From NCBI GenBank assembly GCA_032433595.1, contig JASWJB010000075.1, positions 1 to 64,000 on the forward strand: a stretch of 64,000 nt of DNA. Reading direction: 5' to 3'. Position numbers and translations under genes: made by a program. The stretch is from Conoideocrella luteorostrata. Lineage: Eukaryota; Ascomycota; Sordariomycetes; Hypocreales; Clavicipitaceae. The notes under the pieces are model-generated. The model ran no database searches. It had not been told where the DNA came from and was given only the letters and a program-made list of their open reading frames with translations. This document shows, one piece after another, positions 58,532 to 64,000 of this stretch. Position 1 is the stretch's first letter; each line of letters starts with the position of its first letter.

Positions 58532-59873
58532 TTATCAGTGTCGCTTACATCATGTCTGTCGAAGTTACTGCCGCGAAAATATACTGGATTGTCGGACTTT
58601 GTTGAGCCAAATCCCTCGGAGTCTTCGAATCCAACGTTTTCTTTCGCGGTAAGCTTTGTATCTCGGAGTTCCAACCTTTGACTTGGATCGAGGCTGTGCG
58701 ATGCGAGCAGAACGCTTCTATCCATCTAACCAATTTCTCAGGAATACCTTTTGCTTTAGTCGTTGTATTAATAACAATCTCTCTTTGCAGACCCCATTGA
58801 AAGCTCTCTTACATCAAAACTGGTTAAGCTTACTACTTGGCTTCTTCTCCAAGCCACGTAGATATATTTTTGTAGTCAACAGAGCTTATGTGGTTGCCAA
58901 GAATAGTAGTGACTGAAATTAGAAGACTATTAAGCTGGTTGGTTGTTATTACCGATAATGTCGGCAATAGCTTGCGGCTTTCTACACCGTCCCTTAGTAG
59001 TAGAAATAGGCATGTCCTGTCGCCGTCGTCTGCTTCGCTCAAATGATAATGCATTACAAGATCGAATGAGTTGGGTGCACTTCGATTATTTGTCATTTGA
59101 CCAGTTGTGGATGTTCTACTGATGTAATTACTCGGCCTATAGTACTAGTACTTGTAGGATACCTCAAGTCTCGCTCTAGGTGTACCTTGGGTCTCGAAGC
59201 AACCAGACTCGTCTCCTACGTCATCCTGAAAGCCATCTAATTAGACTATTTATTCATCGCTGTTCAAGTTATTCCATAAATATATTAAGTCCTTTCACTA
59301 ACTCAAAACCTAACTAGTGTACCAGCGCCTTTGGAACAACGGACACCGATACCATAAAAGCACACGGGGCACATAAGTGTGCATGAAAAGGAATCACCCT
59401 TCGGATAGGATAATAGAATTGTGAGTGCTTATCTCCCTATTCACACAAAGCCAAAGAATACGCCCTCTCTGTAGGTAAATAAATATTTGTGGCCCAGACA
59501 TCGGCTAAGAGTCAATAATCCAGACAAATACCTAGACTTCAGCTACAATAAACCCTCCGATCTTGTACAGTACTGTATTGCAGAAGCACATGCTGTCGCC
59601 GACGAGGTCCGTAAGAACAACCAATCCGCTCGATCGTCTTCTAATTTCGGTCCACTATTCTTGGCAGGCGCATGGTACATCATTCGCAAGCACCACTGCC
59701 ACTGCTTGTCATCGGACCTCAGCCGTAGAAATTTGCCATGATATCCAAAACATCTGAAAACATACGACGCTGGCGCGTTGTGTTCGCTCACACTAGTGGG
59801 AGGTTCCAGGGATGTCTGCGTTGAGGCAGACGATGTTCTTCACAAGGCAGGTTTTCATGATACTGTTGGAATC
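58532..59873. other. Segment between two inverted LTRs
   Basis: 1.3 kb without a recognised retroelement protein or gene. As the LTRs face away from each other it is not the inside of one element. Confidence 0.5.
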
Positions 59874-60076
59874 CCTCGTTAAGTATACAAGCAATTGTAG
59901 ACAAGATCACGTGGCCACCCTAGCGCGCCTCTTTTATACAGCGCGCTTGGGGGCATTCCTCTTTTTCTTTTTCTTCTATCTTAGATAGCCACGAATGAAT
60001 TGAATTGGTTTGCACATTGTTTTGCTTCACCTTCCGGTATCATACTCTCGTCACCTGAAGCCCTGTGCTTCCTATA
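59874..60076 (+). repeat. LTR family B, plus orientation
   Basis: Begins TGTTGGAATCCCTCGTTAAG and ends CCCTGTGCTTCCTATA; the centre has CACGTGGCCACCCTAGCGCG and TTTTATACAGCGCGCTTGGG. It is inverted relative to 58320-58531 and ends 65 bp from the stop codon of the CHAT gene. Confidence 0.75.
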
Positions 60077-60140: not shown

Positions 60141-62486
60141 TCATGCCCCATAATGCACAAACTGTGCCCAATTCAGCGGCATATCGAGATCCCCTGCACG
60201 CACTGCCATCACCGCCCCCTGCAGCGCCGAAGCCACCTCGTTATTATTGATAGCTAACTGGCTCCCCCGTAATACCAAAGAGTAGAACCGCTTCGCTACC
60301 TCAACACACTCCGAGTCCCCAGCTGGCCACAGGCACCCCACAACATGCGGAAAACCCGCTATCTGGAACCCGCTAACAACATGAATCACTTCATCTGACA
60401 ATTCTGCCGCCTTACTCTCCGCCGTAGAGCATGCTGAGAGGTAGGCAATCTGCGCGTGTCTAAGCCGCAGCTCCGAAACCCTTTGGACTGTGAGTCGGTC
60501 TTGTTCGAAAGCCTGGTCAGACCCAGCACTCCTTTGTAGAATCAGACCACTGTTGGAAGGGTCTAAGTAGTCTAATGTTCCGTGGCATGCAAAATGTGCA
60601 ATACGACAGGTCTTGAGGATCCCTAAAACTTGATCCGCGCTGGGGTGGGTAAGAACTGTTGTATGCATTTGAGAGCGAGCCAAGTTGAGAATCTCCTCCG
60701 TCTCTTCTTTGACTCCAGGAAGGTTTCGTAACGCTTTCTTATCAGAAGGCCCTTTTGGCGACGTCGGCATTGCTGCAATAAGGATTGTGCCCTGTGCTAC
60801 CGGTGCATCCTCGACATGCTTCGCCTGATTTTGTGTATAAGCAAGAGCCTTGATCGATGGCGTGTATGAAGATATAATCCTGCTATAGGTGTTCTCCTTT
60901 GACTCTCTAGTATGTACCCCTGCAGCGTGGAAGGGCATCGAGCTCGCTAAACCGGATCCAATCCACCATACTCGCAGACGGCCTTCGCTTGGATGTTTCT
61001 GTGTAGCGGAGATCTCGGAGAGGATGTGTTTAACACAGGCATGCCAAAGCCAAGAAAGATACTTTAAGAACTGATCGTTTTTATATCACTGCTCAGACCT
61101 CTTTTTCGTTGACCAATCTTTACTTACCCAAGACCACGCATCAGATGCTGACAACTCAGGAAGAGCAATTATTTTCAGTGAATTACGGGAGATAAGAATG
61201 GCATCACTTCGAAAGTCGGTGATGTTGATAACTACAATGCAGCCTTCAGCAACAGTTTCCTGCATTTCAGCAACAGTTTCCCCAAGCATAAAGCGCTCAT
61301 AACCGGGAAGGCATCTGATTTCCTTCAAGCACGTATCTAGCTCGGCCGCAGCTTCTCGTCGGCGCTTTGGTATCAAAGTTTCAACCACATCGGGAGCGCT
61401 TTGACGGACAGGTGGATTCATTTCGTCTACGAGACTCTGATATTGGTCGGCTAATTGAGAATGGTCTCGGCGGAGTGAAAAGACATCAGTGCGGTCATCT
61501 AACAATTGACTGATGATGACAGCCCGCCCCTGCTCGAGACATTCGAGGGCCTCACTAAATCGATTCGCGGATAGGAGGAAGGCACATAGGTCAGAAGCGA
61601 CGCCTGCGAATGTTGAAATGACGAACTGCTGGTCATTGCGATCAAGGGCACGTGTATGGACTGAAGGAAGAAGAATGAGTATTTCTTTTCCAAGATCGAT
61701 GGCTTCGTCAACTCTATGCTGCCTAGCAAGTAGTTTCAAACATCTAGCAGCAGCTCTCACACGATAGAAGGGCACAGCGTTCAGACACGCCCAAGCCTCG
61801 AGAAGATAAGTTGAGGCCTCTTTCAAGTCCCCAATCTCTCTAGTCCACGCATATCGGCTCTCAAGCTTGTTTCCAAGGTTATTCAACCACCCTGCCCGGT
61901 CTGGATGGTCGTCTGGCGTAGATTCTACAGCTTGCCGTGATATCTGTATTGCCTCTTCCAGGTCCCCCATCTCTCTAGTCCGCTCATATCGGCTCTCAAG
62001 CCCATGTCCAAGGTTATTCAACCGCCCTGCCCGGTCTGGATGGTTATCTGGCGTTAATTCCACAGCTTGCCGTGATATCTGGATCGCCTCTTCGAGGTCC
62101 CCCATCTCTCCAGTCTGCTTATATCGGCTCTCAAGCTTGCTTCCAAGGTTATTCAACCACCCTGCCCGGTCTGGATGGTCGTTTGGCGTCGATTCCACAG
62201 CTTGCCGTGATATCTGGATCGCCTCTTCGAGGTCCCCTATCTCTCCAGTCCGCTCATATTGTTCAATGAGGAATACCCCAAGATCGTTCAACCGCGGTGT
62301 AAATGATTGATTTGTGTCATTTGTCAGGCGCATACCCAGCTTAGCCAAGAATACGGCTTCGCTAATGTCATCTCTTCTTCCTGTTTGCCTGTATTTCCTG
62401 TATGCGCTGAATGCAAGCTCCGATAGAAGATTAGGGATATCTTCCGTATGGATGCCGGTATCTGCCATAAATGCCGCGATATTCAT
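60141..62486 (-). CDS. TPR - CHAT caspase-like protease
   Basis: TPR repeats followed by a CHAT (caspase HetF associated with TPRs) cysteine protease, about 762 aa. N-terminal residues 1-215 contain four or more 42-residue TPR units (RLNNLGxxLESRYxxTxExG, DLEEAIQISRQAVE, HPDRAGW), encoded by nearly identical 126-bp DNA repeats. A helical linker (SALECLEQGRAVII, LDDRTDVFSLRRDH) leads to CHAT: catalytic His in AHFACHGTLDY, catalytic Cys in YLSACSTAES, and VVGCLWPAGD. In the main frame a TGA lies at 61086-61088, but GTAAGT at 61127 and CAG at 61071 bound a 57-nt (19-codon) intron that removes it in frame; I use this model (exons 62486-61128 and 61070-60141). If that intron is not spliced the protease domain is lost. 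It stands divergently to a gasdermin-like gene and could be its activating protease. Confidence 0.82.
61867..62270. repeat. 126-bp coding tandem repeats (TPR units)
   Basis: Three successive segments share long near-identical DNA, e.g. TTATTCAACC(A/G)CCCTGCCCGG and ACAGCTTGCCGTGATATCTG, at 126-bp spacing. They encode TPR units of the CHAT protein. Such close DNA identity indicates recent unit turnover. Confidence 0.85.
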
Positions 62487-63242
62487 TCCAATAATGACGA
62501 GTCTAAGGTTTGTTTGGGATTTGTTTCGTCACTGGCTGACTGAGGTCGTTCATAAGGATATGTCATAATGATCGGAGTCGGGATTCTATTTCGCCCGGAG
62601 GGATGTCCCTAGAGGGCCTGGTTGCGAATCTATACGGTCCGCCCATTCGTCACATATCACCTCAAGCCCCACCCCCTCTTATCCCACAAGCACCGCCTCG
62701 TCGCTTTATGCCTTGCTTGACAGGCCCGCTCGAGGGCCAATTCCACAAGTGTTTAGCGGCCTATCTTCAGTAGCCGAAGCCTGGTCTGTTGATTTAGTCC
62801 ATCGCTGCGTCCTCTCAAACCGTCACTCTCGGTCCCGTATCTAGCCTCTTTGTTGCTTTGGCGAATTTGATTGTAGCCTTAAACACGTCCGTGTTCGGCG
62901 CCCATTTTTATCGTCCGATGCCGCCTTCCCACCATATAGCACCATGATCACTTCATTGCTACCTAATTGACGCATTGTAGGCATCGCATATTGCGTATCA
63001 TAGCAGGCTTCTATACCGGCTCCTATTCTGCCTAATTTGTGGCGGTGGCTCATTCGCTGTGCCTCGCCGAGCCATATTACGCACTGCCTCTTCAATGCCC
63101 AAACAAGCGGCCTCAATAAGCGCGACTTTGCCACCACACACCGTCGCTGGTCAAATCTATGATTATTTGTCTACATAATGTTCATAATTTTGGAACATTA
63201 AGCTCCTCGCTCATTCTGATTCAATTGGAAAGCTTTTCAACG
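62487..63242. promoter_or_regulatory. Divergent intergenic/promoter region between CHAT and gasdermin-like genes
   Basis: 756 bp with no convincing gene (ORFs here lack domains). It must hold the promoters of both divergent genes, which would allow shared control. I recognise no specific site. Confidence 0.5.
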
Positions 63243-64000
63243 ATGGCCGCGACAGTTATTCCATCTTCATTTTTGCTGCCGCTTGAGTCCGTTAGGCTGG
63301 GGAGATTCATTACAAATATTCACCACCCACATGAGGGTTACTATGAACCCCCATGTGTCGACTTGCCCAAGGCCATCATGATGCAGTTCTCTTTTTCTAG
63401 CCAGGTTCAACAGAATAGCAAGATGCAATTTGGGTCTGCATTGACGTCTCTGATATCCGCAGGATTCTCCAAGCGTCTTCAATCTCACATCCATCTAGCA
63501 CCAGCCCGTGGTAGCAATTACTCCCTTGACAACTCCGATGCATGGTTTGACAGGGTAGTTGGCATCCCGGACACGAGGAAGTGGATCGAAAAAGCAGCCC
63601 TCCGCGGCCACAAGATCTACGTCATAGTCGGCATTCAAACATTTACCAATACCCGCATCGTCCAGAAGTCAGCCCGAGGGCAACAAACCGGGGGCAAAGT
63701 CAACGCGCCAATCAGCGTCTCTCTTGCAGCTGCCACCACTATTATGCCTTTCGCCGAGCTTATTGATCCCGCAATTCATGGGGAACATCAGTTTATCGAG
63801 AGCGATCAACTATGCCTCCTCGCTCCTGGCGAGCAAGTGTGTTCTCTGCAGTACCGCGAGGTTAAAACCAGGTGGTTATCTAGCCGACTGATCGAACCAC
63901 TGCAACTCTCAAAAACCCGTCACTGGTCATGCATGGAGGGAGACAGGCGCGACGCATATGAGGAAAGTGATGAAGAAGACGAGGATATAATCGAGGTGGG
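63243..64000 (+). CDS. Gasdermin-like protein (partial, runs off the window)
   Basis: Open from ATG 63243 to the window end (252 codons, no stop, no intron). It starts MAATVIPSSFLLPLESVRLG, followed by RFITNIHHPHEGYY. The middle has NYSLDNSDAWFDRVVGIPDT, then TRKWIEKAALRGHKIYVIVG, then VNAPISVSLAAA, LLAPGEQVCSLQYREVKTRW, and an acidic end (EESDEEDEDIIEV). The order (a Leu/Asp turn with W, a helix with R and W, G-x-IYVIVG strand, a Gly/Thr loop, and APGEQVxxLQYRxV) parallels the pore-forming N-domain of gasdermins, and the length fits fungal gasdermins (about 250-300 aa). In known fungal systems a short C-terminal tail is cut off by a neighbouring protease; the acidic tail here could be such a tail. 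Assignment is by pattern, unproven. No signal peptide: intracellular. Confidence 0.55.
   Translation, partial: MAATVIPSSFLLPLESVRLGRFITNIHHPHEGYYEPPCVDLPKAIMMQFSFSSQVQQNSKMQFGSALTSLISAGFSKRLQSHIHLAPARGSNYSLDNSDAWFDRVVGIPDTRKWIEKAALRGHKIYVIVGIQTFTNTRIVQKSARGQQTGGKVNAPISVSLAAATTIMPFAELIDPAIHGEHQFIESDQLCLLAPGEQVCSLQYREVKTRWLSSRLIEPLQLSKTRHWSCMEGDRRDAYEESDEEDEDIIEV

Follow-up and report, generated by a model that had tools for sequence, protein, structure and literature searches.

The window, the whole 64,000-base stretch of DNA analysed here, is made up of the first 64,000 bases of contig C75 (150,959 bases) in a 46.4-Mb assembly (620 contigs) of Conoideocrella luteorostrata, which we take to be a pathogen of scale insects. 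Two divergent genes lie at its far end, one for a gasdermin-like protein and one for a protease with TPR repeats and a CHAT domain. A first-pass annotation of this DNA had described them as head to head with 756 bp between them, and the positions of the open reading frames (ORFs) confirm this layout; the region between them presumably carries the promoters of both genes. A published C. luteorostrata assembly has 864 scaffolds and 47.39 Mb, and its version may differ from the one used here (PMC12352038). The features are as follows, with the evidence for each in brackets.

63243..64000, + strand: first 758 bases of the gasdermin-like gene, a predicted fungal gasdermin (fGSDM) (ORF, homologues, AlphaFold2 (AF2) models, fold searches)
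63954..64000 and on beyond the window, + strand: beginning of the acidic linker with the tail at the C-terminus, a candidate inhibitory fragment (analogy with HET-Q1)
62487..63242, no strand: divergent intergenic region, 756 bp (ORF positions)
61089..62486, - strand: the 466 amino acids (aa) of the TPR half, from the TPR-CHAT gene (ORF, Pfam, repeats)
61086..61088, - strand: in-frame TGA dividing the TPR half from the CHAT half (ORF, homologue alignment)
61062..61127, - strand: stretch omitted by the gene model QQS21_004879 (P0132), effectively a 66-nt intron (public gene model)
End at 61071, - strand: alternative 57-nt stretch, which preserves the frame as the 66-nt version does
60141..61085, - strand: CHAT (caspase-like) protease half (Pfam, His and Cys codons)

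The gene pair, the CHAT domain, the TPR repeats and the acidic stretch of the first-pass annotation all stood, but the protease is not a single open frame and the gasdermin ORF does not end inside the window.

The gasdermin-like protein

The ORF runs without an intron from a Met at 63243, also the start position of most aligned homologues, to a stop codon that ends at contig position 64106, and encodes 287 aa. Its relatives number 103 at E <= 0.001 (best 1.7e-163, well beyond chance) and 192 in a profile search, of which the best 120 were listed. Most of the relatives listed are named 'hypothetical' or 'uncharacterized', and the species named among them are, we assume, ascomycetes. Among the matches listed, a precomputed Pfam domain is given only for P0099, which is annotated as a cupin and whose alignment covers half of the query. 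Lengths are mostly 270-290 aa (92 of the 131 entries listed), with 24 entries below 260 aa, some of which may be gene-model errors, and 15 above 290 aa. The window gene itself seems to be absent from the public annotation, since the best match is 86% identical and comes from another genus, though the adjoining protease is in the database.

It is by predicted fold, and not by sequence, that this family can be assigned to the gasdermins. When an AF2 model of the window protein was searched with VIA-align, rows 1-20 were all gasdermin entries, and for a model of its paralogue in the same genome (described below) so were rows 1-23; in both cases the best structural match was RCD-1-1. The first match in Foldseek was 7n50, a bacterial gasdermin fold. 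Both paralogues are thus predicted to have the fold of a gasdermin N-terminal domain, and the likeness that had been proposed from motif order is upheld at this level, although the two models are not fully independent because their underlying alignments share many rows. Sequence searches were silent. Pfam returned no gasdermin family for the single proteins or for sets of 45 and 58 members, and PDB searches with one sequence and two profiles gave no significant gasdermin match (RCD-1-1 stood at E 1.1 in one profile search and was absent from another), but a remote relative of low identity can be missed in such searches. NCBIfam and PADLOC likewise showed no relation to gasdermins; weak families at chance level in the sequence-search listings were ignored. 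That the protein is instead a different pore-former of the MACPF/CDC-like kind, or forms no pores, is highly improbable: the first MACPF/CDC-like entries appear at ranks 21 and 24, beneath the 20 and 23 gasdermin rows, and are far longer chains. As a proxy for membrane insertion we also took amphipathicity, calculated for a helix and for two long strands; it was no higher than in shuffled sequences.

The acidic stretch near the C-terminus is present in the translation. Linker and tail begin at about residue 238, and a cut after residue 240 (an assumed site) would release 47 aa, or 5.2 kDa. We propose this tail as a candidate inhibitory fragment by its likeness to that of HET-Q1.

The protease gene and its in-frame stop

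The CHAT domain is recognised by Pfam over nearly the entire profile (PF12770, E 4.1e-40, 138.5 bits, positions 3-289 of 289). The His in FACHGT is codon 60582-60584 and the Cys in LSACST codon 60429-60431; both are present in the window copy as first annotated, and we assume them to be the catalytic residues here. When the CHAT half was searched by sequence against the PDB, nothing came up at E 1. Pfam also confirmed the TPR repeats, and the TPR half includes three repeats of 45 residues each that are 88-90% alike at the DNA level.

Both halves lie in one frame, but a TGA at 61086-61088, overlooked in the first-pass annotation, breaks that frame between sensor and protease; because of this stop the window copy may be inactive or dependent on splicing. 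Outside the stop, the CHAT half deviates at 1 of 97 strongly conserved columns, and the median of its relatives is also 1. The interruption is therefore recent, bypassed or not real, which leaves a null allele, splicing of the gene and an assembly error as the explanations for this copy. Repeat-induced point mutation (RIP) as the origin of the stop was rejected, its composite indices being negative in both genes.

If the TGA is a true nonsense mutation, the protease has recently been inactivated, with the TPR half alone being made, and the neighbouring gasdermin, itself intact, would be either unemployed or dependent on a partner from elsewhere. We hold this to be quite possible, if somewhat below even odds. 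The stretch around the TGA is open in 113 of the 120 CHAT homologues among the matches listed, which favours this reading, and the branch-point motifs CTRAY and YTNAY are both absent from the first 80 bases after the 5' splice-like site. Nor are short relatives rare, at 24 of the 131 gasdermin-like entries listed, some of them perhaps gene-model errors. The conservation of the CHAT half elsewhere speaks against this reading, as does the sequence GTAAGT, which agrees well with the consensus of a 5' splice site.

Alternatively, the stop may be spliced out as a short in-frame intron of 57 or 66 nt, so that the protease is made, perhaps only under certain conditions, while translation of the unspliced transcript would yield the TPR part alone. 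This is a tentative reading. AG ends lie 57 and 66 nt from the start of GTAAGT, both versions keep the frame, and CTGAG, judged by eye, comes close to a branch point. The public model P0132 omits 66 bases around the TGA, beginning at GTAAGT; its tag, QQS21_004879 (150,959-base contig), and QQS21_002008 (267,147-base contig) are C. luteorostrata entries among the relatives listed. Six of the 120 listed CHAT homologues skip the stretch and one skips part of it; P0205, among those that skip, is named 'partial'. Four Fusarium oxysporum models (P0172, P0173, P0178 and P0184) omit the same stretch as holds the TGA here, the first two and P0184 resuming at the point where the 57-nt version does, and P0178 later. 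Against splicing stand the 113 homologues in which the removed residues are coding and the lack of an exact branch-point consensus. Moreover, the annotation of C. luteorostrata was made with funannotate and is credited to protein alignments and BUSCO training, with transcripts unmentioned in the part of the paper available (PMC12352038).

An error in the assembly is unlikely, in our view. The assembly is a draft of 620 contigs and the remainder of the gene is intact, both of which would fit an error; the published assembly, if it is the same one, was polished in five rounds at 51.6x coverage (PMC12352038), which argues against it. Finally, the stop could be a natural switch and not damage, either through optional in-frame splicing between a full sensor-protease and a TPR-only protein, or as a null allele kept next to the intact gasdermin for non-self recognition, after fusion, between strains that have the protease and strains that lack it, in the manner of the HET-Q1/HET-Q2 strains. 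We regard this as an improbable reading.

A second pair in the genome and pairs in other fungi

The same genome holds a second gasdermin-like gene (L014:3735-4568, - strand), head to head with an uninterrupted TPR-CHAT frame of 1138 aa (L014:4931-8347, + strand). At both loci the protease gene thus lies within 10 kb of the gasdermin-like gene, 756 bp away in the window pair and 362 bp in the second. The two gasdermin-linked CHATs share about 50% identity with each other, and 28-38% with each of five further CHATs whose alignments exceeded 60 bits; for the CHAT regions L008/L021 and L022 no row in this comparison passed that score. Only two of the ten CHAT matches in the genome have a gasdermin-like neighbour. 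A search of the genome with the gasdermin-like protein found only the two pair loci and one fragment on another contig, and a profile search over nine CHAT regions (C529 left out) found no further gasdermin-like neighbour, though a subfamily of more divergent gasdermins might escape both searches. The fragment (L013, contig C139:38171-38269) is a remnant of a third gasdermin-like gene, with about 33 codons and an internal stop.

Additionally, the two families occur together in other fungi, so the conserved synteny expected of a real pair is found both there and in the second C. luteorostrata pair. Sixteen of 129 gasdermin-like proteins are on the same contig as a CHAT homologue among the matches listed; in 2000 jittered sets this number averaged 0.2 and never exceeded 3. 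A shared contig was inferred from an identical listed contig size, so that for large contigs (up to 37 Mb) it means the same contig and not adjacency; five of the 16 are below 35 kb. The comparison used 129 of the 131 gasdermin-like proteins listed (P0067 and P0126 have no size) and the best 120 of 1872 CHAT matches, one without a size, and because only those 120 are listed, no partner is visible for most gasdermin-like proteins. Locus tags bring the genes closer together. In six cases they are consecutive (FNYG_15027/15026, FNYG_04297/04298, FOQG_16177/16176, FANTH_14908/14909, ACKAV7_003811/003810 and Q7P35_002213/002214), and in V2G26_002332/002330 they are two apart; for FOQG, where clusters of several strains are joined, the tags are consecutive and the listed contig sizes different. 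By locus tag, two of the five gasdermin-like copies of F. nygamai have a partner among the matches listed. In some genomes present in both listings, e.g. H9L39, BFJ68, FTOL and Cosmosporella, the tags are not neighbouring.

The partners also diverge together. Across 17 pairs, the gasdermin and CHAT distances correlate with r 0.961, a value reached in 0 of 20,000 permutations, and shared species history contributes to this correlation. The set consists of the two C. luteorostrata pairs and 15 outside pairs, seven of the latter recognised by locus tag (FNYG twice, FOQG, FANTH, V2G26, ACKAV7 and Q7P35) and eight by a shared contig alone (Dactylonectria twice, Ilyonectria, Mariannaea, Xylaria, Corynascus and two short metagenome contigs). 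The set does not include Cosmosporella or Fusarium QSH57, whose contig carries two CHATs; Cladosporium is represented by its adjacent CHAT, 002214, and not by 002211. Swapping the partners of the two C. luteorostrata pairs lowers the correlation from 0.977 to -0.686. The same swap does not discriminate in Dactylonectria (0.953 vs 0.947) or F. nygamai (0.973 vs 0.966). The test carries information only in C. luteorostrata, with its two divergent pairs.

The window gasdermin is 86% identical to its Dactylonectria relative and 39% to the second gasdermin of its own genome. The window pair as a whole is nearer to pairs of the Nectriaceae than to the second pair, which is nearer to those of Xylaria and Corynascus. 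Either old paralogy or transfer would give this pattern.

Surroundings of the window pair

Copies of an interspersed repeat of about 210 bases lie just downstream of the CHAT gene (window ~59861-60075) and about 8.5 kb further on (C75 ~68348-68488; L009:9349-9489). We considered whether these direct repeats bound a mobile element that includes the pair and rejected this, because the repeat is a short interspersed element found in at least 41 places genome-wide, the window copy included. Downstream of the gasdermin gene are also two inverted-repeat pairs resembling miniature inverted-repeat transposable elements (L009:6366-6620 and L009:7342-7588), with arms of 28-32 nt and exactly 191 nt between the arms in both.

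A candidate cell-death module

We put the probability that the window pair is a two-gene fungal cell-death module, made of an fGSDM and a TPR-CHAT sensor-protease, at roughly 0.8. The first-pass interpretation has so far held, in that the structure and synteny checks were run and neither refuted it. For the trigger, cleavage, pore formation and death we infer the following course. The gasdermin core would be held inactive by its short C-terminal tail behind the acidic linker, and the TPR array would sense a non-self or damage cue. The CHAT domain would then cut the gasdermin in or near the linker and release about 5 kDa, and the freed core might form membrane pores that lead to cell death.

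It is improbable that the gasdermin is independent of cleavage and that the neighbouring protease acts on another target. The nearest structure, RCD-1-1, is not controlled by cleavage according to reviews, which would favour such a reading; the co-occurrence and co-divergence of gasdermin and protease weigh against it, as does an acidic linker with a tail of the size lost from HET-Q1.

The pair appears to be one more case of a self-destruct module already described in fungi, and little in it is new in kind. As far as the analysis reaches, what is new lies in the detail: the fold assignment of the family, the apparently unannotated gene, the interrupted protease and the presence of another, intact pair in this genome. 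The results add two divergent copies of a well-supported gasdermin/CHAT pair from what is most probably an insect-pathogenic fungus, and a family named mostly 'hypothetical' or 'uncharacterized' can be placed among the gasdermins by its predicted fold. For work on cleavage, the uninterrupted pair provides an intact system; the interrupted one bears on whether loss of the protease is tolerated or used.

Comparison with known systems

According to reviews, about 80% of fungal gasdermin genes (~1900 in 400 genomes) adjoin a protease gene, and 19% a CHAT protease (PMC10197012); elsewhere CHAT is given for about 17% of partner proteases (PMC10989679). The present family is possibly within this published set of ~1900 already. 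A literature search joining gasdermin, Fusarium and 'CHAT domain' found no paper.

RCD-1-1 of the Neurospora crassa pair RCD-1-1/RCD-1-2 is the best structural match to the window gasdermin. That system differs in being activated by the meeting of two alleles and not by cleavage, and it has no significant sequence match to the window protein. HET-Q1 of Podospora anserina is similar in size (278 aa, against 287 aa here). It is cut at F238 with the loss of 40 residues, a C-terminal fragment of about 5 kDa, the size of the tail proposed as inhibitor in the window gasdermin (PMC10989679). Its protease HET-Q2 is of the subtilisin-like S8 type, however, and het-Q1 and het-Q2 are idiomorphs at one locus (PMC10989679). 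Bacterial gasdermins with caspase-like proteases follow the same two-gene logic (PMC10197012) and share the gasdermin fold (7n50); an N-terminal palmitoylated cysteine has been described for them.

The hetB locus of Aspergillus fumigatus encodes a CHAT protein that acts in allorecognition; across hetB and its kin the CHAT gene is present in 22 of 46 assemblies, being missing in other strains (PMC11138114). Since a hetB-type CHAT gene varies in this way, a polymorphic protease beside an intact gasdermin would by analogy be a sensible idea here. The hetB case differs in that a gasdermin partner is not established and the variation is one of presence and absence, not of a stop codon (PMC11138114). 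In Podospora anserina, a TPR-CHAT protease activates the gasdermin encoded next to it, according to a review of the work of Clave et al. 2022 (PMC12881547). Going by that description, this cluster resembles the window pair in having an fGSDM beside a TPR-bearing CHAT protease, and differs from it in that the C. luteorostrata protease gene has an in-frame stop.
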